From: Psococerastis gibbosa
Taxonomy: Eukaryota > Arthropoda > Insecta > Psocodea > Psocidae
Assembly: GCA_963971405.1 (NCBI GenBank)
Contig: OZ020490.1
Location: forward strand, 8,170,874-8,234,873
Direction of reading: 5' to 3'
DNA: 64,000 nucleotides
Part shown: positions 3,307 to 44,450 of the stretch, piece after piece
Layout: each line of letters begins with the position of its first letter
Position numbering within the stretch: the stretch's first letter is position 1
Notes under the pieces: model-generated
What the model saw: the letters and a program-made list of their open reading frames with translations, nothing else
Database searches by the model: none
What the model was told of the DNA's origin: nothing
Translations under genes and position numbers: made by a program

Positions 3307-3319
3307 GAAAATTATTGTT

Positions 3320-3814
3320 ATTTTTCAAAATCAAATAGACAGCGCAGCACGATATGAAGTCAAAGTTGCTATAGAAGGCGTACCGATGATCTTTGACGTA
3401 GACTCGGGATCAGGTTACACATTTTTACCCAGAAATATGTTAACATTGATCAAAGACAAGGTAACAGTAAAACCAGCAGACGTACGTTTCCGTTCTTTTA
3501 CGAAAAATATTTTCAAACCTGACGGTAAAGTTACGGTAAATGCTACATACAAAAATAAGAATATTACTGAAGAGATTTACATTGTGCCCGAAGAATACTG
3601 TGTCTTACTTGGCAGAACTTGGATTCGAAAATTGGGAATACATTTAATTGAACTTGATCAATTTTCTTCGAATGATAAATCCATTCAACTCATTAACTCA
3701 ACTGACGATGTATTTAATGAATACGCAGATATATTTACAGAACAAATTGGGTGTGCATCGAATTTTCAAGTATCGCTTAAGTTGCGAGAAAATGCAACTC
3801 CAATTTTTCATTGA
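3320..3814 (+). pseudogene. Gypsy B protease and pol linker
   Basis: A retropepsin-like domain with DVDSGSGYTFL near 3395-3427 and the late motif VLLGRTWIRKLG (about 3604) gives the two conserved ends of an aspartic protease monomer. The frame runs into the linker before RT and stops at 3812-3814. Homologous pol coding continues past that stop in the same frame to another stop near 3890. At least two nonsense changes therefore separate protease from RT. Confidence 0.75.
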
Positions 3815-3869
3815 GAAAGAGAAGTGCCGTATGCATTACGTGAAGAAGTAAACAAGGAACTTGACAGCT

Positions 3870-5085
3870 TGGAGAAACAAGGAATAATTTGAAAAATCGA
3901 CCAAAGTGATTGGGGTTCGCCTCTAGTAGTAATACAGAAAAAAATGGTGGTGTTCGACTTTGTGTAGACTATAAAGTCGGAGTAAATCAACGACTCATTG
4001 GAGCGCACTATCCGATAAAAAAAATTGACGAAATTCTCAATACACTGAAAGACTCAAAGTATTTCTGTCAGCTGGACTTATACAAAGCATACCTGCATGT
4101 ACCGGTCGACCAAGAATCAAGTGAATATCAAACAATTTCGACACACAGAGGTACTTACCGTATGAACCGACTCTCTTTTGGCATAAAACCAGCACCGGCT
4201 GAATTCAACAAAATCATGGATGAGATGTTGCGAGGACTCAAAAAAGCTAATTCATTTTTTGACGATATTGTCATCCATGGGACAACACGAGAAGAGTGTA
4301 GAGATAACCTTATTGAGTGTCTGAAGCGATTACGGCAGAATGGATTTCATTTGAACAAAAAGAAATGTTTCTTTTTTCAAACAAGTATCGATTTTTTGGG
4401 ACATGTGGTAGAACACAATAAAATTCGTAAATCACCCGAAAAAATTAGAGCAGTCATGGAAATGCCACGCCCGACTTCAAAAGAAGCTGTTCAACAATTT
4501 TTGGGGATGGTAACATATTATTCCAGGTTCATTCCAAACTTATTGACTTTAACTTTTCACTTACGTCAACTTTTGAAAAAAAATGTACTTTTTAAGTGGT
4601 CAACTGCGTGCGAAAAGGCTTTCATAAAACTCAAGAGGGAAATGTGCAGTAATCGTGTTCTCATACCTTTCAATGAACAATTACCGGTACAACTAGCTTG
4701 TGACGCAAGTCCGCATGGAATCTCAGGAATATTAAGTCACATGTTACCAAATGAAGAAGAACGGCCGATAGCTTTTGCGTCAAGATCACTAACGTCAGCA
4801 GAAGAACATTACTCACAACTAGATCGTGAGGCACTTGTAATAATATTTTCAGTGCAGCACTTTTACCAGTACTTGATAGCTCGACCGTTCAAATTGATCA
4901 CAGATAATCAACCATTACTTCGCATTTTCCATGAAAATGCTCAGATACCAAAAATGACGTCGTCGCGCCTCCAGAGATATGCGGCGTACCTTTCCCAATT
5001 TAACTATCAAGTTATGTTCAAGAAGGGGATTGACAATACTAATGCCGATTGTCTATCAAAGGGCACCAATAAAAGTGAAACCTGA
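3870..5085 (+). pseudogene. Gypsy B reverse transcriptase and RNase H
   Basis: The ORF from 3910 reads the RT fingers (LCVDYK), LDLYKAY, a SFGIKPAPAEF palm motif and FFDDIV at about 4254-4268, the catalytic Asp pair. Connection and RNase H follow: ACDASPHGISG (about 4699), the SRSLTSAEEHYSQLDREAL box and a TDNQPLL motif. The domain is complete to 5085 in one frame. It is linked to protease by a frameshift at a poly-A run near 3940 and to integrase by another before 5090. Gypsy order (RT-RH-IN) separates it from copia A. Confidence 0.85.
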
Positions 5086-6486
5086 AATTGAGGGAGAAAT
5101 CAATTCACAAGTTAATTCGATAAACTTCACTTCAGTGTTTGCTATTTCATCAATTAAAGTAAACTACAAAACCTTGCGTGAAGAAATAGATAAAGATGAG
5201 GAACTTCGAGTAATCCGAAATGAACTAGATACAAGCACAGAATTGGATACAGAGTTTACTTTAGATGCAGGCCTGATCTTCCGGGGACATCGAGTAGTAA
5301 TCCCAAGATCAATGCAAACAACAGTGTTAGATGAATTACATCACACTCATTTGGGAATTACCAAAATGAAACAATTTGCTCGTAGATTTGTATATTGGAA
5401 GAATATCGATAAAGATATCGAAGAACTTGTACGAGCATGCAAATCGTGTGCAGTGATTAAAAATAGTCCACCGAAATCACCACTACATCATTGGGAAGAA
5501 CCGCAGTCTAATTGGGAACGAATTCACATAGATTATGCGGGACCCTTTCAAGGATTTTATTTTTTAATAGTTATGGACGCAAAATCAAAGTGGGCAGAAA
5601 TTGCAACTGTAACCAACGCTCCATCTACTGAATCAACTATCGAAATTCTTACAGACCTGTTTACTAGACATGGTTATTGCAATTCTATCGTCTCTGATAA
5701 TGCTTCTATTTTTACCAGTCAAGAAATGCAGTTATTCTGTAGAGACCGAGCTATTTTTCAAAAATTCATAGCACCAGGACATCCTGCCACAAATGGATTA
5801 GCAGAACGAAACGTACAGACTTTAAAAAAGAAACTAGGGGCTATGGTGGACGTGCAAATTCCTATGAAAAAAAACTTCAAGAAATACTTTTTCGTTATTG
5901 AGTTACGCCCTTAAAAAGTGGTCTGACACCTTCAGAGCTATATTTAAATCGACAAATGCGATGTCAATTGGATGCATTGATACCCTTCAAAGAGTCAAAA
6001 AAGTTATCGATCAGTTCAAAAAGAACTAGACAGTTTCAGACAAATGACACTGTATTTGCACGATATTATTCGAATAATAAAAGCTTCTGGAAGGAAGGCA
6101 TAATAATTAAAAAATTGGGACTGCTCCATTACTTGGTACAATTAGACGATGGATACATTTTCAAGCGACACATCAATCAACTGTTAGCGAGTCAAGTAAC
6201 TGCAAAGAAAAGGGTTCCTTTTGCGGACGAACGCGGGAGTCCAACTCAAACTGTTTATCAACCTACGGAACTATCGACCAACGAGACTCCTCGAGTGGAA
6301 GTACCTACTTATCAAACTCCGGAGCCATCGACCAACGAGATTCCTCGAGTGGAAGTACCTATCGATCAACCTCCGGATACATCGACCGAAGAGGCTCCTC
6401 GGGTAGAAGAACCAGAAGATCCGAGTCTCAACCGTCCTCAAAGACGTAGGCGCCCTCCAGCCTATTTAGAGGACTACACATTTTAA
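5083..6486 (+). pseudogene. Gypsy B integrase and repeat-bearing C-terminal tail
   Basis: The H2C2 zinc region (HHTHLG...CKSCAV, about 5337-5453) is followed by the core with HIDYAGPF (about 5524), SDNASIF (about 5696) and LAERN (about 5799), giving D, D and E. The frame breaks at about 5912 and resumes at 5956 in another frame. The last 90 residues hold three copies of a roughly 20-residue unit built around TNExPRVEVP, then an Arg-rich motif and a stop at 6484-6486. The tail is unlike a chromodomain. The frameshifts make the polyprotein non-functional. Confidence 0.8.
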
Positions 6487-6497: not shown

Positions 6498-6637
6498 TGT
6501 GATATCCTTCAGTTCAAATTTGGCGCTATTTTCAATTCGAGTGTTCGATTGTGCTTTTTGATTGTTGTTGATTCAAGGTCGAAAGTAAAATCCTGAATAA
6601 TGGCTAACCACGTTTATCTCTAATAAAGAGTATTTAA
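6498..6637 (+). repeat. 3' LTR of gypsy B, first part (second part about 13125-13158)
   Basis: The LTR opens with TGT after the purine tract and has a possible AATAAA signal at about 6622. It is interrupted at TTAA (6634-6637). The sequence after the TTAA at 13121 is AT-rich, runs to an ACA end and then returns to copia coding sequence. The joined length would be about 174 bp. No 5' LTR is present for comparison, so the boundaries are inferred. Confidence 0.55.
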
Positions 6638-6948
6638 GAGTGAACAGCCCGTAGGAAATTTTGGCAATTCCATATTTGGTACCACAGAGCAAAAAGAGAA
6701 TAATTTTTTAGAATAGTTCAATTTTTGTCAAGTTGTCAACACACATTGGGAGATCCTTGAGGGTCGGCAGCAGGTATACGAGCGAAGGGTGTGAGTGATG
6801 ACTCATCATCTGATATATTTACGACCCTCTATGCCTCAATAACAGCCGAGTTCCTATATTCCTTCATCCAGCCAAAAAGCAGTGGCGTGCCGTATCTTCC
6901 AGGCCGCAGTTACAGCAGTGGCGTCTCCTTACATTTTGTATTCTTTAT

Positions 6949-7661: not shown

Positions 7662-8565
7662 CAGTGTACAGCCCTTAGGGAAATTGGAAATTAAATTTAA
7701 CATTTTATTTATTATTTAATTAACTAAGCAAGTTCATAAAGATTTGGCCCACTTAAGTTCTAGAAGACTACTTCATGCATCGTATAATAAAGTATTTTTA
7801 ATTTTTGAAGTTCTAGTTTTTTCATAAACACGATAATAATTTATACTCGGTAATTTATAATACGCAATGCGTTTCACCGTGAATTTTCTATCATTTAAAA
7901 AAAAAACCTTTTTTCCACAAAACCAAATAGATTTTTGCGAAAGCAACCTGCTCGGTTTCGTTACTCAATTAAACACATAATTCATGCCTGAAGGTAGAAA
8001 TCATCGATAGAAAGGTTTCGCAGAGAAATTATTTTTTAGTCATTTTTCATTCAAATTTAGTTATTTTTATTTTTTTACCCCCAGACAGAAACTATCAAGG
8101 GGCAAGCGACCCCCCCCCCCCATATTGTAAACATTAATGGCGACTGCAATATACTGTATGTGAATTTAGAAGAAATCGTTGGAGCCGTATTTGAGAAATA
8201 AATTGTTAGACGTTTTTTTGGAGATTTTTGAAAATAACCCCCCCCCCCCAAATTGAGTAAGCCCCATTTAAAAAAATTGTCTCGAGGTATGATTTTTGTA
8301 AACCTACATACCAAATATCATCAAAATCGGCCGAGTAGTTTGCCCGGAAATCGATGAACAGACAGACAGACAGAGCTACAGACAGTCATTTCGTAAAAAG
8401 ATTTTTTTTGGTTCCTGAGACCTCAAAACGTGTAAATCCGTTGAAATCTCGAAATCGAAAATTTCGACCATCACAAAGCTTTCCTTATACTAGGCTACGT
8501 ATAAATTGGAAAGCAATAAAAGGTACTAAATATCGGGCTGCCAATTTCCTACGGGCTGTTAATTC
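7662..8565. mobile_element. TTAA-flanked MITE interrupted by a half foldback element
   Basis: TTAA at 7658-7661 is followed by CAGTGTACAGCCC. The interior to about 7860 matches the MITE at 20691-20986 (shared AATTAACTAAGCAAGTT and CTTCATGCATCGTATAATAA). The other end, GGGCTGCCAATTTCC to the TTAA at 8566-8569, lies beyond a foldback fragment at 7861-8520. The inverted ends resemble those of the surrounding transposon, so this is likely a non-autonomous relative. Confidence 0.6.
7861..8520 (+). mobile_element. Half copy of the foldback element family
   Basis: This block matches the left arm of the palindromic element at 30070-31808. Shared landmarks are CTATCAAGGGGCAAGCGACC, the GACAGACAGACAGAGC run and the centre ATAAATTGGAAAGCAATAAA. 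Only one arm is present. It includes two poly-C tracts and has no supported ORF. Confidence 0.7.
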
Positions 8566-8623
8566 TAAAAGACCGCCGTTATGGCAAAGAGAGGGAAGGA
8601 CTGAGACTGGGCGAGCACTAATT

Positions 8624-11600
8624 CTAAAAAACACTTAGAAAGGCCTGTCTGATGTCGTTAGTCCGCTCTGCAAGGGTGTACCGTGGTGAAACAATTTCGC
8701 ATAATAAGGCTTCCTTGTAAAACCTCTCGAGTTTTGGCACCATGACTGAACGCCAAAGACTCTGGTCCCTGGTAACTTCAATGACCTCTTGCCAATGAGG
8801 CGTGTATATGAAAAGGTAGCACTTATTCACCTTCAAAATGTTCAGCTGCCCCTGTATCTGGTAGTGCCAGTAACTTTTTGGTTTAAGCTGGACGACACCT
8901 TTTTCGCCGCCAAGTTTCAACATTGCAGTCTTCTTCTGCCTGACAGCATCTGCCAGCGACGTCGTCTCAGCTTTTGTGGCTGCCCACAAACATTTTATCT
9001 CCAGTAGAGCATCCTCTCCACAAACTAATCCGTCGGGCGAAGCAGCGAGAAAGGGATACGTGGGATCAACAAAGAGACCAAATTTTTTCACTTTCTTGCC
9101 GTTTTTGCAGCAAAATATTTCCCGGGCCAAATCCTCGTTCGTTTTCCCAAACTTTACGGCTTGAGTCCGTGAAATATCACTGTACAGGATCGACTTCACA
9201 GTGTTTCGGGTTGAGGTCGTTGGCCTTAAGCACATCACTTTACCAAAATTTGAAGCAGTGAGGCGTTTCACCCTTTCCACCATCCAATCTTCCGAAAGGT
9301 CTTGACCCATTGTCCTCAACTGTAATTCTTCCGGATCAACAGAACTCAACTCTTCTAGGAAACGCTCTTTACTCTGACGCAACTGCGATTCTGGGATATC
9401 TGGAATATCCTCAACGTCCCCGTAATCTTCATCTGGACCTGCTTCTTCTTTCCACTGAGTCGGTTTGCTTCTTTTAAACAGTTCTCGCCGTCGCCTGTTA
9501 TGTTCCGTTCTTAATTTTGCCCGTGAAACGTATCCCTTCGTTCTACTCCCTGGGGTTCGAATGTTACAAATACGCCGTGCGACATCTGCTAAAAAGGCAC
9601 CCTCGTTAAATTGAAGACATGCGGCTTCCATTCTCATGTTGTAACTTCCGCGAGCACCATAAAAAATTCTCTTGCCACCAATTAATTTATTTGCTAGGCT
9701 ATTGAGTTGTTCGCATAGATTGCTGTCAACATCAAGCAAGAGTGAATCAGCATGGTGTGCGACCCTGGTCATCAATCTTATCAAATCATCAGCTAGGCCA
9801 GATTTTGTCATCACATTGTACAAGCTGGACTCATTTACGCCTTTCTCTTTGCAATAGTACTCCAGGCAATCATGATGAAGACCAAGTATGTGTTTAGGGG
9901 CATTTAAAATGTCCTTGTGCAATCCCTCACAACGAATTGATGAAAGGCCAGCTGCATTTTTCCAATGCTTAATCGCGCCTCTCACAGCCTGGCGAAAGCG
10001 GAAAACGTTGGATGCTAAGGCTTTTCGCTCTGCTATGGGGAACTTAGTCGCCTTCAAAAACCCACGCAAGTGGCCGTCCATATTTCTGAGTAAATGGTTG
10101 CGGCATTCCACTTTTTTTATTGCAACGGTAAATCCGTACGGCTGTGCCCCTAATAGACGCTTCATAACACTTGAATCCCCATCACCAATGAGCCTCGTGT
10201 AAGCAATGCCTTGCGTCTGTATGCTCCGCCGAAATCCCTCAACAATTATATCAGCTTCCATGGCAGTTGAGGAACGTTTCCAGTTCCTAAAGCATTTGTG
10301 GGGCGCCTTCTTCCCCGTTTTTTTTTCTCTACAACACAAGGAGCAGAACTTATTACGCGTGCCCACAAAAACAACTTTCCTTGTCCTGTACCCAATAATT
10401 GACGCCATCCCCGACAACGAATTATATTTCGTCTTATATGACCTCTTAGCCCACATTCCATCAGCCACAACTGTAATAAAAGGAGTGCCATCTGGCAAGA
10501 CGTCTCCAGCTTCTAAAGCTAACTGTTTTTCTTCAGCCGCAGCTGCAGCCATGGACTGAGAAAGGCTAGCTCCAATTCGCTCGGACACTTTCAGTCCCTC
10601 TTTCATAAATTTTCTCTCACTCATGAAAGGGATGTTCAACGCAGCAAAAATTGGTTCAGCGGCTGCAAAGCCCACACCACCAGATATCACGCCGTTCACC
10701 AAATTACCTTCGATGTTTTCATCGTTAGGCTGAAGGGCGTATTTTCTAGTGGAGTTGCACATGCGGCATTGAAATAGCAACTGCACCGTCATTATGCTGT
10801 GCTTTTTTATGGGCACCTCCCTTATGAAGTCCATGTCAGCAATAGTGCACATGAATGGTTTGTGCACGTCATTTTTTAATTGGGTGAAGAGGTGAGCCAA
10901 GTTAACAATCCTGTTGCCTGGTAAAGTACCAGTTGGCAAAATTGTGTTGGGCTCATCGGCCCCGATGGACTGATTGCCAACAGTCTCATTAACTGGGTCC
11001 TCTTCCTCCATAAGAAATGGGCTGGGCTCATCGGCCCCAATGGATTGATTGCTAATGACTGTCTCATCAGCTGGGCCCTCTTCCTCCATAGCAATTGGGC
11101 CAGCAAGATTAAGGCTGTCAGAGACGTCGTCTGGCGTGGATGTTAAAATAACACCTTCTCTTTTAAGATAATTATCAACCCTACAAAAAAGTATTAGACA
11201 TAAATATAACAGCAGTGAATATTGTATAAGCTTACACCATGGTTTGATTATACTCTACTGTTCATGCAATCACAATTGGGGATACACATTGTATATATTG
11301 TAGTTATTTTTTCGTCTCCGAGGTAGAGACTCAGTTTCTGGGCCCAGTGTTCTGCCAATCAGACGCAATGGTCGGTGCTGACCCAAAGGTCGTTGAACTG
11401 TTTAAGTCGTTGGTCTCTTTTCGGTGGTGGAAGGATTAGCCGCTAGATATTTCCACTTTGCATTGCCTGGGGTACGCCCGATCGTAATATAATAATAGGA
11501 CTCGTAAATGTAGTGACGAACAACACATAGTCTACTGGTTTCAATTTCACTATATTTACTGCTCAAATGCAAATGCTAATTTCAGAGTAAGGCACTATAT

Positions 11601-12532
11601 ACCCGGGTATTGTCATCCGCCATGTTGTATCCTAATTCCTATATGGTAAGTATTGTAAGAAAAGTAAGAGGTTGAGAAATATTGAAAAAACTAATACACG
11701 TTTTAGTATTTTTTTATTAAACACTTCCCTAATTGGTAGCACGTTTTTTTAAATAATAATAAATAAACAACGATAAATTTCTAAAAATAAATAGGTAAAC
11801 ACCCAATGCTTGGCTTATACACCAGACTTATAATGGATATAATGTGGCGGATGACAATACCTGTCTAATATAGAGCCCTATTTCAGAGAAAACAATTCGA
11901 AATTTGTAACTCTAACATTCACTTCTTTCTCTCTGGATAAAAAAATTGAATGAATTTTTAAAACACTAAATTCATCAGAATCAGTCTGGAAGTAGGTTTT
12001 TCCCCCAAACAAAGCTTGTGACCAGGTAACCAAGGCACAAAGTCTCCCAAGATTGATACATGTATGTTTATAAATGATATGGCGGCTATTCCACTTGCCG
12101 ATATTCCCTCATTTATGCATCAATAATAAGTCTCTACCATATTATAACTTAATTTATAATAGATAAGTTAAGTATCTACATAATAGTCTCATTCAAAGAA
12201 AAATCGCATCAATTATTGATGCACAAATGTGGGAATATTGACAAATGCAATAGCCGCCTATGCCCATGGTTGCTCCTGACTGGTTACAATAAAAATGAGG
12301 TCCCCACATACAAATCTCACTTAGAACGATAGATCACTATCCTCTTTAAATTGGCTGTCGATCTATCTAGACATAAATAGCAATTACAGATACGTACTAC
12401 ATTTCTTATAACAACATGTACTAACCGTTCCATTTCCTTTTTTTTATGGGGTGCTACGCCTTTAAACCCTTTCCGATATGCTCGCGTCCGTCTATTTTTT
12501 TCATATTCCTTCTGGCCTTTAAATTTACCCAT
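8624..12532 (-). CDS. Mutator/Kolobok-like transposase fused to a YqaJ-type nuclease, two exons
   Basis: Exon 1 (12426-12532) starts at an ATG, encodes a short Lys/Arg-rich N-terminus and ends at a GTTAGT donor. Exon 2 (8624-11180) begins after a TTTTTTGTAG acceptor. The split codon joins in phase and the frame is open to the stop, giving about 887 residues. The transposase core shows VVADGMW (Asp near 276), IGDGDSS (Asp near 369-371) and SNLCEQLNSL (Glu near 526), a plausible DDE triad, with a Cys/His cluster near 315-331. The C-terminal third has the YqaJ/lambda-exonuclease pattern: FGKTNEDLAREI, SPDGL (Asp near 752) and LEIKC (E-x-K near 763-765). The acidic N-terminal region repeats a 26-residue unit about twice. 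The gene sits inside TTAA-flanked inverted ends, so it is most likely the element's own transposase. The fusion is known in arthropod proteins. What the nuclease does is unknown. Confidence 0.8.
11588..11880. mobile_element. MITE with 8-bp target duplication
   Basis: TTTCAGAG is found at 11580-11587 and 11881-11888. The enclosed 293 bp start TAAGGCACTATAT and end with the near inverse, and share the inverted block GGTATTGTCATCCGCCA. An 8-bp duplication fits hAT-like or related transposases. It lies in the transposase intron. Confidence 0.65.
12078..12262. mobile_element. Short inverted-repeat MITE
   Basis: The left end (TGGCGGCTATTCCACTTG, then ATTTATGCATCAATAAT) and the right end are inverted copies of about 45 bp around an AT-rich core. 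A related fragment lies at about 16526-16775. No clear target duplication was seen. Confidence 0.55.
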
Positions 12533-13158
12533 TCTCAGTACGCCAAGAAAACAATGGACAAAATCATAAAATATGAAATAATGCGAGAGTTAACAAATTA
12601 CTTTGTTTACAAGCTCTGAACGCAATGCTAACAATGTAACAGAACAAAACCAAAACTGCGACATATAAATCAGTGCGACATCTTCTGGAAATTACCTACA
12701 ACATTGTTCACGTCGATTGTGCTTGGTTTCACAACAGATTAGCTTTCTGTTCTCAGCCATCTTATTTGAAATGTAAACAGATAATATAAATAATTTATTT
12801 ATTATGCTATTAATGGAAATTAGTAAAATGTGATTCATTAATTTCTTAGATATTGTAATTTAGTTGCCTTAAATATATGTTGTAGTGCCACATTACCAAC
12901 GGTAAGATCTCAAATTCCCTGTTCTGTTTTATTTTTTGGCCTTTTTTAACAATTTTTTTCTCCGTAGTGACTAAATATATCAAAATTGTAAATCGTTAAT
13001 ATTATACCCCACATCTTTACCTTTGTTATCATGGTAGATATGTAATAAAGGCATTAATTAAACATGCTTAAAAGGCCCTATTGCTTTAGGTCCAAACACC
13101 ATTCTACGGCCTGTACACTCTTAACATAATAATGTATTTATTTCTTATAAGAGACACA

Positions 13159-13936
13159 ATGGAAAGTAATTAATAAATTTGGAATGATGGATTGTAATCC
13201 AGTATCTACTCCACTGGAAATTAATAAGCAGTTAATAAAACCAGCGGAAAATGAAAAATTAGAAAATATACCTTTTCAGGAATTGATTGGTTGTTTAAAT
13301 TATATATCCCTAGGTACACGACCGGATATTACCCATGCTTTCAGTAAGCTCTCACAGTTTAATTCTGCGCATAGTAAAGAGCACTGGATGGCGGCGAAAC
13401 GAGTCTTACGGTACTTAAAGGGTACTTTAAATTTTAAATTATATTTTCGGAAGTCAGTTAAATCATTAGTTGGCTACTGTGACTCAGACTGGGCTGGAAG
13501 TATTGTTGATCGCAAGTCGTACTCTGGCTATGTGTTTAAACTAGCTGAAGGAGCGGTAAGTTGGGAAAGTCGCAAACAGCGAACCACTGCTCTGTCATCA
13601 TCAGAGGCTGAATACCTAGCATTAAGTGATTGTGCCAAGGAAGCTAAATTCCTTAGAGCCCTATGCACCGAACTAAATGAGGTAAGTGGACCTACAATTA
13701 TTTTCTGCGACAATCAAGCCGCAGGTGCTTTAAGCAAAAACTATCAAGTTAATAATCGTACAAAGTACATTGATATTCGTCATCATTTTAAAAAAGAGTG
13801 CGTTGAAAATAACGAAATGTCAATTGAATATTTGTCTACTAATGATATGATAGCTGATGTCTTAACTAAGGCGATTCCTCTCAGTAAGCATGAGCGATGT
13901 CGTTGTGGTCTAAATTTGATTTGGAATCAGAATGAG
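13159..13936 (+). pseudogene. Copia A: end of RT and RNase H
   Basis: The frame resumes with KFGMMDCNPVSTP, the usual sequence after the copia palm domain, and passes GTRPDI and the LRYLKGT box. RNase H follows with DSDWAG (about 13473), SSSEAEYLAL (about 13596), the DNQAA box (about 13711) and HIDIRHHF to ADVLTKA. This half has no stops. The ORF reads on into the LTR and stops at 14072-14074. The missing RT core prevents function. Confidence 0.85.
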
Positions 13937-14078
13937 TGTTGGAATAAACTTAGTTTACTGTCTACTCATTCTTGTTCTATTGTATATCGAAATGTTGTGT
14001 GTTGTGTTATTGAAAAATTAAAAATGTTCAATCATATTTTCTTTATTATTTTACTTAAAACTTATCTAAATTAGAACA
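13937..14078 (+). repeat. 3' LTR of copia A (about 142 bp)
   Basis: It opens TGTTGGAATAAAC just after the RNase H region and ends TTAGAACA, the same end as seen at position 19. TG..CA ends and the match to the 5' fragment support it. The 5' edge rests on its likeness to copia LTR starts. Confidence 0.7.
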
Positions 14079-16525: not shown

Positions 16526-16775
16526 AAGTATTCCGTCATTTGTTTTAAGGAGACAATAATATTTTATACAATTGTATATTATATTAATTATATTTATATC
16601 TATTTTATATTTATATACATTTATGTTATTTTATTTTAGATTATTTAATATTTATATTTATTATTATAATTAGGCTATATATATTATTATATAAATTAAG
16701 TTTTAATATGGTAGAGATATTATTAGTGATGCATAAATGACGGAATAATGACAAGTGGAATAGCCACCTAAACAA
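16526..16775. mobile_element. AT-rich MITE remnant
   Basis: The ends (TATTCCGTCATTTG near 16530 and GCATAAATGACGGAATAATG near 16733) are inverted and related to the MITE at 12078-12262. The core is nearly all A and T. Confidence 0.45.
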
Positions 16776-21664: not shown

Positions 21665-21779
21665 ATAAATCGGGAAACCAAGATGTTCCGTAAAATCAAT
21701 TAAAAAGAAAAATTAAAAATAATAATTAAAATTGTCGCGTGTGCAAAGTGCTTGTGTAACCTAATCTTACCAGTACACC

Positions 21780-24700
21780 ATGCACGAAGACGTAAAAATT
21801 GAAAAATTAAATGGTCCAAACTACCTCACGTGGAAATTTCAAATAGATGTCATCTTAAAATCGATATATGCGTACGACATTGCAACCGGAACGGAACCTT
21901 TACCAAGTATCCTTACCAAGGATAAAAAAGATGATACATCGTGGATAAAAACTGACATAAAAGCTCAACGACTAATTGTAACCTCAGTGGATAGCAGCCA
22001 AATTGTGCATTTACTAACATGTACAACATCAGCCGAAATGTATAAAGCATTAAATGATCTCTACAATAAGGACACTCATCAACAAAAATGTTCTCTTCTA
22101 ACGGATTTTTACAACTTTAAATTGGAAGATGTCAACAAGGGAATTGCTGAAATAAAAATAATTATCCATAGACTAGCTTCATTGGGAGAAAAGTTAACAG
22201 ACGAGATGGTTGTAACAAAGATTGTATCTTCTCTTCCCGAAAAATTCAACGCCTTCAGAAGTGCTTGGGAGTCAGTCACTGCAAAAGATAAGACGCTTGC
22301 CAATCTTTTTTCTCGCCTTCAATTAGAGGACGAACGATGTGGAAACAACTCAGTAGCATTCAAAACACTAGCCCAAGGTAAAAGTACTCTATCTAATTCT
22401 AATTTTAAAAATAAAAATGAACTTTTCTGTACGTATTGCAAATTAAGAAATCATAGGATTGAAAAATGTTTTAAAAAAGCTAGAGATGAAAGAAATACGC
22501 TTTATTGCGGAATTTGTAAAAAGAGGAATTCGCACCGATCCTCAGAGTGTTTTTTCCGTAACAGAAATAGAGAAAATGGTGACAGCAATAATAATAAAGT
22601 TTTTTTGGTATCTAAAAATTCCAATTACTTTAATAATAATAAAAGTATTAGCTTAGCTGTCGATAGTGCAGCAAGTAAACATTTAGTTAATAATTTAAAT
22701 TGTCTTGAGAATAGTAATCCTGCAATATCAAAATTCAGTTTAGCAAAAAAGAATGAATCCTTATTTGGAACGGCCATAGGAACATTAAAGAGTGAGAGTG
22801 TGACATTAAACAATGTAGTTTACGTACCGGAGTTATCTCAAAATCTTCTTTCTGTTAAAAAAATCACCGATAAAGGTGGGTTTGTATTATTTTCAAAAGG
22901 AAACGTAGAAATTATTAATTCAAAATTCGAAACTGTCATGGAAGGTAAAGAAAATAACGGTTTGTTCGTTGTTAATTTAAAATATGGTAAAAACCAAAAT
23001 TTAAAAAATAGAGAAAATATTTTTTCTGTGAATGATTATGACGACATTTATGAATGGCATAGAAAATTAGGTCATATTAGTTTTAAAAATTTGCAAAGAC
23101 TTGCAACAATGTCAGATGGAATAAAAATAACTAAAAATTCTTTAGATATTAAAAATTGTGAAATTTGTATTAAAGCTCGACATGCTCGTGATCCCTTTAG
23201 TGGAAATTTAAAGCGTGCTACTCGAATGCTCGAAATAATTCATAGTGACGTCGAAGGTCCCTTTGAAATTGAATCTATTGATCAATGCAAATATTATGTA
23301 TCAATAATTGATGATTTTACGTGTTATAGTGAAGTACATCCTATAAAAGCAAAATCAGACGCAGCAAATGTTATAAAAAATTTTATTTTGCGAGCCGAAA
23401 ATGAAAAAGGTTTAAAAGTATGCAGATTTAAATGTGACGGTGGAGGTGAATACCTGCCATTAAAACAATGGTTTTATAATAGAGGAATATTTTTTGATGT
23501 AACTGCTAGTTATAGTCCTCAAATGAACCCTCGTTCAGAAAGATTAAATCGGACAATTACTGAAAAAATAAGAAGTTTACTCTTTGATAGTAATGTTAAT
23601 AAAAATTTATGGAGTGAAGCGGCTAAGACAAGTTGTTTTTTACTTAATCGCAGTCCAACAGTTAATAGCAAGGCAACGCCTATAGAAAATTGGACTGGAA
23701 AAAGACCAGATTTAAAAAATTTAAAAATTTTTGGTTCTGAAGCTTATGCCAAAATTCTACCTCGTGTTAAGAAGCTTGATGAAAGATCAAGAAAATTGAT
23801 ATTCGTTGGTTATAATCATAATGGTTATCGTTTGTTTGACCCAAACATTAAAAAGATTGTTATTTCTAGGGATGTTATTTTTCCTGAAAATTCACTTAAA
23901 ATTAAAAATAAGCTAAAACCTGAAGAAATGGTAAAACTTGATTTTAATGTTTCAGAATTTTTCAAGGATTCAGAGTCTGAATCAGACAAGCACCAAGTGA
24001 GCCCACGTAGAGTCAATGAATCTGTGGAGGAAATAATCAGTGAAAATGATGCTGACGGTGAGTCTGAATCAGAACCTGAAACTCCAAAGGAATACCCTTA
24101 TAAATTAAGAAGTAGAATTAATCTACGGAAACCTGCTACACTTGATGATTGTGAAACTAATTTAACTGATCTATTTGATGATAGCGTATATTTAACGTTT
24201 GAAGAAGCCGTAAAAGGCAATGAATGTAAAGAATGGGTAGATGCTGTAGAGAAGGAGAAAGAATCGTTGATTTCTAATAAAACTTGGATTTATATTCCAA
24301 AAGCAGAAGCTGAAAATAATAAGATTTTGACTTCTCGCTGGATTTTTCGCAAAAAAGATAATAATACTTTTAAAGCCAGACTCGTTGTAAGAGGTTTCGA
24401 ACAAGAAAATGGCATAGATTTTACCGATATATTTAGTCCAGTGGTAGATTCAAATAGTTTACGATTGTTATTTGCTTTAGCAGCAAAGAAAAAAATGCTA
24501 ATTGCTTCATTTGATATAAAATCTGCATTTTTAAATAGCGATCTTAATGAGAAAATTTTTATGCATATTCCGGAAGGATTTAAAAACGCTAAAAACAAAG
24601 ACAAAGTATGTCTATTAAAAAAGTCATTGTACGGACTTAAACAATCTCCAGCATTGTGGAATTCTAAGTTGAATGATTATTTATTATCGATTGGTTTACA

Positions 24701-25676
24701 GAGATTAAAATCAGATCCTTGTATTTATTGTAATACTGATAAAAGCTTGATAATTTCAATTCATGTTGATGATGGATTAATAATAAGTAAAAATGAATTG
24801 ATGTTGAATGTTTTTGTAAAAAAGCTAAGCAAACTTTGCGAAGTTACCTATAACAAAGACATAAAGAAATATGTAGGTATTGAAATTTTGAGAACTAAAG
24901 CTGGTATAAAAATTAGCCAGGAGAAATATGTTGAAAACATGCTTAAAACTTATAATATGTCGGAAGCAAATTCTGTTAAAACTCCAATATGTAATCAAAA
25001 GTCAGATAACAGTAAAAATATATCCTTTCCATACCGCGAAGCAGTCGGTAGTCTCTTATATTGTTCTACTAAAACACGACCAGATATAACTTTCAGTGTG
25101 AATTATGAAAGTCGTTGTATTGAACCTAAAACTGATAATGTTTCCGATGTAAAAAGAACTTTAAGATATTTAAAAGGTACAAAGAATTTAGGAATAACTT
25201 ATAATGGTTCAAATTGTAATAAACTAATTGCATATTCAGATGCAAGTTACGCAGATGATGAAATATCTCGGAAAAGTACCACAGGTTTCGTGATTTACTA
25301 TTGTGGCGGACCTGTAGCTTGGTGTTCAAAGAAACAAAATATTGTAACACTTTCCACTACTGAAGCTGAATATATAGCAGCTGCAGAATGTCTAAAAATG
25401 TGTTTGTTTTTGAAATCTTTAATCCAGGAATTAACTGGTGAAAAATTGGAAATCTTACTATTTGTTGATAATACTAGTGCAATTGAAGTAATGAAAACTG
25501 GTTGTGGAAAACGAACAAAGCACATAGATGTAAGATATAAATTTATTACTGATCTAGTAAAGAACAAGGTAGTAGAAGTAAAACATGTTCCAAGTAGTGA
25601 ACAAGCAGCAGATATTTTTACAAAAGCTCTACCTAATTCTTCATTTGAAAAGTTTAGAAAAATGCTTGTTGATTAA
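21780..25676 (+). CDS. Copia C gag-pol polyprotein (1298 aa), intact
   Basis: The ORF starts 116 bases after the primer site and runs without a break. Domains in order: UBN2-type gag (about 1-200); two Cys/His knuckles (about 217-256); aspartic protease with VDSAAS (Asp 295); GAG-pre-integrase HHCC (about 420-465); integrase core with HSD (Asp 490), KCDGGGEY (Asp 553) and NPRSER (Glu 587); RT with FDIKSAFLNSDL and HVDDG (Asp 997-998); RNase H from about 1110 with SDASYAD, TTEAEY and VDNTSA. The catalytic acids are present. The usual YVDD is HVDD and the usual NG before the integrase Glu is NP, two variants worth noting. The protein would make particles, copy the element RNA and integrate the DNA. 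Confidence 0.95.
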   Translation: MHEDVKIEKLNGPNYLTWKFQIDVILKSIYAYDIATGTEPLPSILTKDKKDDTSWIKTDIKAQRLIVTSVDSSQIVHLLTCTTSAEMYKALNDLYNKDTHQQKCSLLTDFYNFKLEDVNKGIAEIKIIIHRLASLGEKLTDEMVVTKIVSSLPEKFNAFRSAWESVTAKDKTLANLFSRLQLEDERCGNNSVAFKTLAQGKSTLSNSNFKNKNELFCTYCKLRNHRIEKCFKKARDERNTLYCGICKKRNSHRSSECFFRNRNRENGDSNNNKVFLVSKNSNYFNNNKSISLAVDSAASKHLVNNLNCLENSNPAISKFSLAKKNESLFGTAIGTLKSESVTLNNVVYVPELSQNLLSVKKITDKGGFVLFSKGNVEIINSKFETVMEGKENNGLFVVNLKYGKNQNLKNRENIFSVNDYDDIYEWHRKLGHISFKNLQRLATMSDGIKITKNSLDIKNCEICIKARHARDPFSGNLKRATRMLEIIHSDVEGPFEIESIDQCKYYVSIIDDFTCYSEVHPIKAKSDAANVIKNFILRAENEKGLKVCRFKCDGGGEYLPLKQWFYNRGIFFDVTASYSPQMNPRSERLNRTITEKIRSLLFDSNVNKNLWSEAAKTSCFLLNRSPTVNSKATPIENWTGKRPDLKNLKIFGSEAYAKILPRVKKLDERSRKLIFVGYNHNGYRLFDPNIKKIVISRDVIFPENSLKIKNKLKPEEMVKLDFNVSEFFKDSESESDKHQVSPRRVNESVEEIISENDADGESESEPETPKEYPYKLRSRINLRKPATLDDCETNLTDLFDDSVYLTFEEAVKGNECKEWVDAVEKEKESLISNKTWIYIPKAEAENNKILTSRWIFRKKDNNTFKARLVVRGFEQENGIDFTDIFSPVVDSNSLRLLFALAAKKKMLIASFDIKSAFLNSDLNEKIFMHIPEGFKNAKNKDKVCLLKKSLYGLKQSPALWNSKLNDYLLSIGLQRLKSDPCIYCNTDKSLIISIHVDDGLIISKNELMLNVFVKKLSKLCEVTYNKDIKKYVGIEILRTKAGIKISQEKYVENMLKTYNMSEANSVKTPICNQKSDNSKNISFPYREAVGSLLYCSTKTRPDITFSVNYESRCIEPKTDNVSDVKRTLRYLKGTKNLGITYNGSNCNKLIAYSDASYADDEISRKSTTGFVIYYCGGPVAWCSKKQNIVTLSTTEAEYIAAAECLKMCLFLKSLIQELTGEKLEILLFVDNTSAIEVMKTGCGKRTKHIDVRYKFITDLVKNKVVEVKHVPSSEQAADIFTKALPNSSFEKFRKMLVD

Positions 25677-41757: not shown

Positions 41758-42095
41758 AAACAAAAAATAACAAAAACTTAGAGTTTTAGAAAAACTTGTT
41801 ATAACAACCCGAATTAGTAAAACCCAAATAATCGTTAAGAAATTAACTTTGTCTAAGAAACCCACTTGTGTTAGTATAAAACCCTGAGCGCTTTCGGCAA
41901 GAACTGCCATCTACAGAGGGAAACCCACTAGCACAGTTACACCTTATCTGCGATTTGAGACTTGCTCAACTCGAGGAGAAGATGCAAATGTGACTAGGGA
42001 GAGGAAACCTTGGTTTATATAGGACTGGGAGCGGGGGGAGGAGGGGGTGGGAGGGGGTGTGGCTGGTTACCTATTCCTAACCTACTAGCTAGATC
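41758..42095 (-). repeat. Inverted arm of PLE F, 3' side
   Basis: Reverse complement of 44113-44450 with about 99% identity by eye (for example ACACCTT against ACTACTT, AATGTGA against AAGGTGA). It has a G-rich stretch at 42030-42058. Confidence 0.9.
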
Positions 42096-42475
42096 TATTA
42101 GAGGGGATGATTGTGTGAATGTTAAGTCGTTGGTTAATTTTTCCATATTGTGTAAAGCTCTTTTGATTTCAACATTTTCAAAAAAATTTAAAGTGTAACT
42201 TTTCTTTATTTTGTGTAGGGCTGTCCAATTGTGAGGATCGAATGTGTGGTTTTCCGAGTTAAGGTGTTTCGCGAATGTGCTGTTGGTGTTGGTGTCTCCT
42301 ATACCTGTTATATGTTCTCTGACCCTAGTTTTAAAGCTTCTGCCTGTTTGGCCTATGTAAATTGCGTTACAATCGTTACAATTTAGACGATAAACTCCAT
42401 TGCCTTTTTCTTTTTCTGGTTTGGTTTTGCAGTTCATGAGTTTATTGGCCAAATTGTTGCGATTGTACGGGGCTG
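42015..42475 (-). pseudogene. PLE F GIY-YIG endonuclease domain
   Basis: Read with the homologous upstream part it has NRNNLANKL, then GVYRLNCNDCNAIYIGQTGR, RVREHITGIG and HLNSENHTFD: the GIY-YIG core with its Arg and a His block, plus the CxxC typical of PLE endonucleases. It makes the nick used for target-primed synthesis. It is separated from RT by one frameshift, and the ORF runs on into the arm. Confidence 0.85.
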
Positions 42476-44086
42476 GTGTTTTGTCTGTTGTAGAAGAAAT
42501 GAGGTTACTAATTTTTTCTGTGATTTTTCTATGTATTGTATCCTGAAATATGATTTATTGGTTACCGGGTTTAAGCTCCCTGGGGGGTAAATTAGTTTGA
42601 GGTTGTGTTTGATTTTGTGATGTCGTAGGATTCTGTCTATTAGGTTGAGATTGAAATTGTTATTTTGGGCAATTTGTTTTATTGTATTTAATTCATTATT
42701 ATAGTTGGTTTGATTCATAGGGATGTTAATGAGTCGAAAAATCATACTATGGAATGCTGCGTGTTTGTGCTGGAATGGGTGAGAAGAATCAACAGGGATT
42801 ATATTATCGCTATGGGTTTCTTTACGAAATATCTTGAAGTCTAGGGTACTATTATTTTTGGTGATGGTGAGGTCTAAGAAGTTCAGGGAGTTGTTTTCTT
42901 CTACTTCCATGGTAAATTGGATTTTTGGGTGAATTGTGTTGATAAAACTTAAGAAATTGTCTAGTTGTCTGTTACTTCCTGTCCAAATGCAGAAGATATC
43001 ATCCACATACCTTGTCCAGAAAGATATACATTTAACTAGGGGATTTTTATTGTGTAGAAGTTTGTGTTCGAAGTTATCCATAAAAATTTCAGCAAGAAGG
43101 GGAGAAAGGGAAGAACCCATAGGTAGACCTATTTTTTGTTGGTAGTAGTCGGATTCGAAGCGGAAATAGTTTTGATGGGTGCATGTGTCTAACAGAAGGA
43201 GGGTCTCAGAAATAAGGCTGTTCGAGGTGTTATTGTGATAGAGTGACTGGGCAACTAATTTACGTACTTCGGGTACGGGAATATTAGTAAACAGATTTTT
43301 GACATCGAAAGAGACGAGTTTGGCATTGCTGGATAAGGAAAGGTGCTTAAGGCGGGAAACCAACTCGAATGAGTTTTTGACGCTGTGGCGGGGTGTGAAG
43401 TTTGATAGCTCGCGAATGTGTTTGTTGAGAAAACTAGCTACTTTGCTGGCTGGGGCACTGTTATACGAAACTACTGGGCGGATAGGTTGATTGGGTTTAT
43501 GAAGTTTAACCAGACCAAAAAATGAAGGAGCTACGGGGTTCATGTTGGTAAATTTATAGGCTATATCTTGGGGTATCGTGTTAGAGCTTTGTTTAATGGA
43601 TTTTTTGGTTGCTTTTTGGAATTTGTTTGTGGGGTCTACTTTAAGTTTTACGAATGTGGATTCATCAGAAATGAGGTCTAAGACTTTAGAAACATAATCA
43701 TGGGTAGGTAAAATGACAATAGAATTTCCTTTATCCGCCTTGGTGAGTGTAAGGTTATCTTGGGCTAGTTTCTTTTTTATAGATTTAGTGTTATCGTTTT
43801 TGTGTGTAAGTTTGACGTTTTTCAGAATATCTGCTGCTATGTGTTTTTCATTATTGTGGTTTTTTAGGCTAAATTCAGTGTCTGACATTAAGTTGGTTAA
43901 CGTGTTTTTGTTTAGACCTATATCGGGGCAATACTTGAGGCCCTTGTTGAGAAGTTCCATTTCTTTTGTGTTGAAAATCGTGTTAGATAAGTTGACGGTA
44001 CGAGGATAGAATTTATGTGTGGTGATGGGTAGTGTAGTGAGTGTCTGCGCTGAAGGCGTGAGGCCTTGACCTACCCCAGTCTGCAT
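42434..44086 (-). pseudogene. PLE F reverse transcriptase (550 codons)
   Basis: The ORF starts at an ATG at 44086. It reads the PLE blocks LTKADKGNSIVIL, FFGLVKLHKP, IRPVVSYNSAP, SFDVKNLFTNIP, GLPMGSSLSPLLAE and RYVDDIFCIW (Asp pair near residue 360), then SLNFLDLTI. PLE RTs are the sister group of telomerase RT. The frame ends at 42434 just after a one-base shift near 42475, where the sequence leading to the GIY-YIG domain is in another frame. Apart from this it looks undamaged. Confidence 0.9.
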
Positions 44087-44112
44087 CGATCGATGAAGGG
44101 GGTTAGACCGGG

Positions 44113-44450
44113 GATCTAGCTAGTAGGTTAGGAATAGGTAACCAGCCACACCCCCTCCCACCCCCTCCTCCCCCCGCTCCCAGTCCTATATAAACCAAGG
44201 TTTCCTCTCCCTAGTCACCTTTGCATCTTCTCCTCGAGTTGAGCAAGTCTCAAATCGCAGATAAGTAGTAACTGTGCTAGTGGGTTTCCCTCTGTAGATG
44301 GCAGTTCTTGCCGAAAGCGCTCAGGGTTTTATACTAACACAAGTGGGTTTCTTAGACAAAGTTAATTTCTTAACGATTATTTGGGTTTTACTAATTCGGG
44401 TTGTTATAACAAGTTTTTCTAAAACTCTAAGTTTTTGTTATTTTTTGTTT
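44113..44450 (-). repeat. Inverted arm of PLE F, 5' side
   Basis: This is the upstream arm for the minus-strand genes. The plus strand reads CCCCTCCCACCCCCTCCTCC, then a TATATAAACC box and the GATGGCAG...TTGCCGAAAGC block. It also opens an ORF that runs into BEL pol. Confidence 0.9.

Follow-up and report, generated by a model that had tools for sequence, protein, structure and literature searches.

We found that the gene at 8624-12532 of the window, a 64,000-nt stretch of the Psococerastis gibbosa genome to which all window coordinates refer (assembly GCA_963971405.1, contig OZ020490.1, positions 8,170,874 to 8,234,873 of the forward strand), lies within an element of 6,483 bp that is very probably a DNA transposon of the KolobokE type (Kolobok superfamily), autonomous and recently active. 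The gene encodes a predicted protein of 887 residues in which a DDE transposase is fused to a YqaJ nuclease. Comparison of the copies of the element corrected its limits within the window (Table 1).

The minus strand holds an open reading frame of 876 codons from 11254 to 8624, most of which forms the second of two predicted exons (12532-12426 and 11180-8624). These exons join in phase at GT-AG sites, so that the spliced frame of about 887 residues proposed in the initial annotation was borne out at the sequence level, with a predicted junction; exon 1 is predicted from its frame and its splice signals. Both exons were fully aligned, with GT and AG in place, at 29 of 30 loci, a retention that is not independent evidence of splicing because the copies are too alike. 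The intron also contains two MITE-like inverted repeats capable of forming hairpins (11606-11861 and 12081-12258), and part of the latter is found again at 16690-16768.

Copies were sought throughout the source genome (409 Mb, 68 contigs) using the DNA of 8530-12700 as the query. The genome contains at least 35 copies, a lower bound because only 35 separate copies were scored of 4,357 first-look candidates, and 28 of the 35 span the whole query in one piece. The mean pairwise substitution divergence among 30 aligned copies was 0.49% (range 0.24-1.11%). The whole two-exon frame was kept at five of these 30 loci (L009, L010, L013, L019 and L023). An indel interrupted exon 1 at five others, three of which (L020, L030 and L034) keep exon 2 whole, and in L029 the tail is shifted and a stop occurs a few codons early. 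The loci of the 30 that are not named here carried earlier stops or shifts. The copies at C1:5348936 and C20:3275250 have common flanks and therefore are not independent of each other by flank.

Table 1. Features of the transposon and its gene, in window coordinates.
Feature	Position	Strand	Basis or remark
Whole transposon, very probably KolobokE type, 6,483 bp	6638..13120	gene on minus	Near-identical copies stop sharing homology here; flanks differ beyond
Left target-site duplication, TTAA	6634..6637		Copy ends; empty sites with a single TTAA
Right target-site duplication, TTAA	13121..13124		Copy ends; empty sites with a single TTAA
Left terminal inverted repeat, GAGTGAACAGCCCGTAG	6638..6654	+	Agrees with the right repeat at 15 of 17 positions
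Right terminal inverted repeat, GAGTGTACAGGCCGTAG (minus-strand reading)	13104..13120	minus	Copy ends
Nested TTAA-bounded MITE-like segment	7658..8562		Right TTAA at 8559-8562; read by eye
Exon 1 (predicted)	12426..12532	minus	ATG start, encodes basic N-terminus; frame intact in 25 of 30 loci
Intron (predicted), 1,245 bp, GT-AG	11181..12425	minus	Contains two hairpin-forming inverted repeats; GT and AG in 29 of 30 loci
Exon 2 (residues 37-887, stop codon)	8624..11180	minus	Same stop reached openly in 8 of 30 loci
Duplicated acidic segment	10940..11100	minus	Duplication visible at DNA level
PF20700 match	9851..10918	minus	Includes the first two D residues, CxxH and the two zinc-finger-like motifs; labels by eye
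YqaJ PD-(D/E)xK nuclease domain (D752, E763, K765)	8843..9289	minus	Pfam, structure-database match and alignment

For the right limit, the 12 copies lying in window orientation were compared; in 11 of them shared sequence stopped at 13123 or 13124, the remaining one (L037) stopping at 12944. On the left side, the copies still agreed beyond 6945 and reached their limit at 6634. Two other candidate boundaries were rejected: one at 6945, drawn from an inverted repeat, since the copies are homologous further left, and one at the TTAA at 8559, since all 35 copies match through it from window position 8530. Under strict anchoring, both ends were located for 25 of the 35 copies, the right end alone for 5, the left end alone for 2 and neither end for 3. 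TTAA flanked both sides of 23 of the 25 copies anchored at both ends, while one (C13:42627077) had TTAT on both sides and one (C1:24781585) combined a right TTAA with an altered left end. Such a pair of TTATs points to the four flanking bases being copied target and not element sequence, and because both sides of C13:42627077 are TTAT, the target choice of the element is not absolute. TTAT was also observed at the right of two right-only copies, C20:13235432 and C14:45307658. For the latter, an exact match to the left-end pattern lies 355 bp past where its left end was expected, and this copy probably has TTAA at its left, so that its two sides differ.

The initial annotation had placed the gene inside TTAA ends without giving coordinates for them. 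Such ends are real, and in the 25 copies with both ends located they bracket the gene, with an altered left end in one; they lie well outside the gene and do not adjoin it. The TTAA nearest the 3' side of the gene (8559-8562) is a bound of the nested MITE-like segment and not an end of the element.

Empty sites were read at two insertions. Joining the window flanks at one TTAA gave 11 genomic matches, 2 of which were the flanks themselves and 5 of which reached well across the junction; a single TTAA was present in all three empty sites read of these five. For the insertion at C1:5348936, all 40 scored matches to the joined flanks (of 456 first-look candidates) crossed the junction, and a single TTAA was again present in all three empty sites read. 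Among a subset of genome stretches, three further matches crossed a junction: one for the copy at C1:7610317, a weaker match (86% over 151 bp) with TTGA instead of TTAA, one for C2:20075962 (74%), with a gap at the TTAA position, and one for C19:3937153 (79%). At the window site, the left flank lies past frames that look Gypsy-like by eye and the cross-junction matches end 35-43 bases right of the junction, so that this element was probably inserted in the tail of a Gypsy-like retroelement.

Other retroelement-like frames of the window were recognised by eye. Copia-like frames at 1266-2804, 3308-6486 and 13151-14074 flank the Gypsy-like element and the Kolobok insertion, and may be parts of a single Copia that nested insertions have broken up. 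An open frame of 1,303 codons at 21765-25676 has the look of a Copia-type polyprotein, and overlapping minus-strand frames at 42015-44119 resemble a reverse transcriptase and a GIY-YIG nuclease, a pairing seen in Penelope-like elements.

The left-end pattern of the element occurred at 2,933 sites within two mismatches, and a hand count gave 48 exact sites among the matches listed; the right-end pattern occurred at 57 sites within two mismatches, 44 of them exact by hand count of the matches listed. The reversed control of each pattern gave 0. The first 100 left-end sites, those listed, included 52 with one mismatch, all on C1, and among these 52 were 9 facing pairs 341-393 bp apart that look like short MITEs. 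Because they share the left end of the element, such MITEs are probably driven by the 887-residue protein.

A Pfam search of the exon-2 frame identified a Mutator-like transposase (PF20700, E 3.3e-78), a YqaJ domain C-terminal to it (PF09588, E 3.2e-14) and a viral alkaline exonuclease match (PF01771, E 8.2e-06), and returned no other family up to an E value of 1. Compared with solved structures, the last 248 residues matched the LHK exonuclease (PDB 3syy, E 6.6e-08), with weak matches also to lambda exonuclease and to mimivirus R354. Both the SPDG and the LEIK motif aligned with 3syy, and a W-x3-R-x4-TAS stretch paired with the same motif of that enzyme; in lambda exonuclease, this motif is close to the 5'-phosphate pocket. 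An AlphaFold prediction for the isolated nuclease, made from a single sequence, was discarded (mean pLDDT 39.7). These results agree with the architecture described in the initial annotation: a basic N-terminus, whose 36 residues have a net charge of +10, a repeated acidic segment, with a net charge of -16 in residues 37-130 and a duplication visible in the DNA, and a DDE-type Mutator/Kolobok-like core in one frame with a YqaJ nuclease, both exceeding the Pfam cut-offs and the latter bearing its SPDG and LEIK motifs.

The same genome contains a second family, with TTAA ends and a 755-residue frame bearing the same transposase-YqaJ fusion (Pfam run on 696 residues). A 2,200-base probe of this family gave 29 matches altogether, comprising 14 full-length places and one over 2,041 bases, all of about 100% identity when rounded, the remainder beyond these 15 near-identical copies being fragments. 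The element measures about 11.84 kb (C1:2277139-2288978; L007, L008 and neighbours), and two copies compared end to end were 99.8% identical, with TTAA on both sides of each. It begins with GGCTGCGGTATAGTA and finishes with TACTATACCGCAGCC, which form a perfect 15-bp terminal inverted repeat. The fusion was the sole frame of at least 110 codons in the 10.7 kb examined, which leave out the first ~1.2 kb. A candidate exon 1, which starts with MG, holds KNRR and has a good donor, was rejected because joining this donor directly to the main frame does not keep the phase; it has only a short motif in common with exon 1 of the 887-residue gene. Other YqaJ-bearing frames of this genome were L102, L104 and L001-L006. 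YqaJ was found by Pfam in L001 and L104 without a Mutator-like domain, and L102 has, by eye, a Cys/His-rich stretch ahead of its YqaJ part, as second proteins of the ISL2EU type may have.

The proteins of the two families share 33% identity over 771 aligned columns by BLAST, or 35% by MAFFT on the available part. Identity was higher in the nuclease (42.0%, 84/200) than in the DDE core (33.8%, 128/379) or the linker (23.3%, 21/90). This stronger conservation is suggestive of a need for the nuclease, as judged from two sequences. Furthermore, every DDE, CxxH, finger and nuclease residue that we listed by eye is identical between the families, including E718, D752, E763 and K765 of the nuclease.

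The features described for KolobokE that were tested are all present, and we therefore assign the element to this lineage. According to Kojima and Bao 2022 (PMC9587614), Kolobok elements produce TTAA duplications and have termini of the form 5'-RR and YY-3'. Here, TTAA accompanied 23 of 25 copies and all six empty sites read, with TTGA in one weaker match, and the 6,483-bp element has GA...TC termini, those of the second family being GG...CC. Kolobok transposases have a DDD/E triad with C/DxxH between the second D and the E, and almost all have a zinc finger between CxxH and the E. By motif, both families carry the triad (D276, D369 or D371, and E526 in the 887-residue numbering) and CxxH (C395-x2-H398), together with a predicted finger (H466, H471, C474, C479) located between CxxH and the E; these labels were assigned by eye, and E526 falls outside the PF20700 match. 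The same source describes for KolobokE a lambda-exonuclease-like nuclease downstream of the transposase, and names it as one of the lineages in which a CCHC finger follows the first D (PMC9587614). Both families have such a predicted finger (C315, C318, H330, C332, by eye), and the position of the YqaJ match and the similarity to the LHK exonuclease agree with the nuclease. PF20700 is named Mutator-like, and the element could conceivably be a Mutator (MuDR). MuDR duplicates 9 bp of target, unlike the 4-bp TTAA seen here. TTAA duplication is also a feature of piggyBac (PMC9587614), but none of the three Pfam families is a piggyBac one, and both GA...TC and GG...CC obey the RR/YY rule given for Kolobok in that source. 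Assignment to MuDR or piggyBac is accordingly most improbable.

The ends, duplications, single-TTAA empty sites, youth and domain content were observed directly, and a pathway may be outlined in which the spliced protein would recognise the short inverted ends, excise the element and insert it at TTAA with duplication of this target, a cut-and-paste chemistry suggested by the DDE family. The fused lambda-exonuclease-like nuclease would most likely act on DNA ends arising in transposition. Trimming of excised ends or processing of the donor site, as put forward in the initial annotation, fits the type of domain, and that the nuclease is conserved is consistent with some part in transposition. 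Our preference, a tentative one, is that it may resect the donor break in the 5'-to-3' direction, so that repair is steered to the sister copy; the likeness of the domain to phage exonucleases leads us to favour this over trimming of the non-transferred strand. Such trimming is the main rival. In Tn7, the PD-(D/E)xK nuclease TnsA cuts the non-transferred 5' strand, and by analogy the nuclease could cut or trim this strand at the ends while the DDE enzyme cuts the other. Here too, one element pairs a DDE enzyme with a PD-(D/E)xK nuclease, and the nuclease motifs are retained in both families; however, it is to the LHK and, weakly, the lambda exonuclease that the domain is similar in sequence, and TnsA is absent from the three Pfam families found. 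This reading is unlikely.

A use outside transposition chemistry, such as attack on rival elements or on the DNA of the host, or repair that has no link to the donor site, also appears rather improbable. Precedents can be cited, as the YqaJ protein of ISL2EU is a separate frame of unknown function as of 2015 (PMC4482050) and accessory enzymes of unrelated kinds occur in other lineages of Kolobok (PMC9587614). However, the nuclease is fused into a single polypeptide in two diverged families, and it is conserved above the DDE core between them. Beyond the preferred resection of the donor break, the nuclease might be essential to transposition, one animal polypeptide both excising the element and resecting or trimming 5' strands, and so biasing the donor break to copy-back repair. 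This is doubtful; if true, copy number would be raised through copy-back repair, and the protein would be a eukaryotic counterpart of the paired DDE and PD-(D/E)xK enzymes of bacteria. The young family, with some uninterrupted two-exon copies, defined ends and empty sites, offers a concrete system for testing the role of the nuclease, and the second diverged fusion family and the many sites sharing the end add material for comparison.

A DDE enzyme is paired with a PD-(D/E)xK nuclease in TnsA/TnsB of Tn7. This is an analogy only, as Tn7 differs in nuclease family and target choice. A tblastn search for relatives retrieved none in viral_contigs or genome_contigs (1 and 8 pattern-matching stretches, respectively), and a literature search on Kolobok together with YqaJ found no paper. 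ISL2EU also carries a YqaJ nuclease, but as a separate frame accompanying a PIF/Harbinger-ISL2EU-Spy transposase and with AT duplications (PMC4482050), whereas the element described here has TTAA and its YqaJ domain in the transposase frame. KolobokD and KolobokP (PMC9587614) and some Dada elements (PMC3706591) likewise combine related DDE transposases with a nuclease, but theirs are of the DEDDh, His-Me finger or DEDDy types and not PD-(D/E)xK. The closest likeness is to KolobokE, which shares the DDE transposase with a downstream PD-(D/E)xK lambda-exonuclease-like nuclease, the CCHC finger after the first D, TTAA and RR...YY termini, membership being judged on these described features, compared by description rather than by sequence. 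The link between such a fusion and TTAA ends, which the initial annotation took to be new, had already been published, since Kolobok TTAA duplications and the KolobokE nuclease both appear in PMC9587614. With no defining difference from KolobokE found, the element is a well-resolved new representative of an already known lineage.
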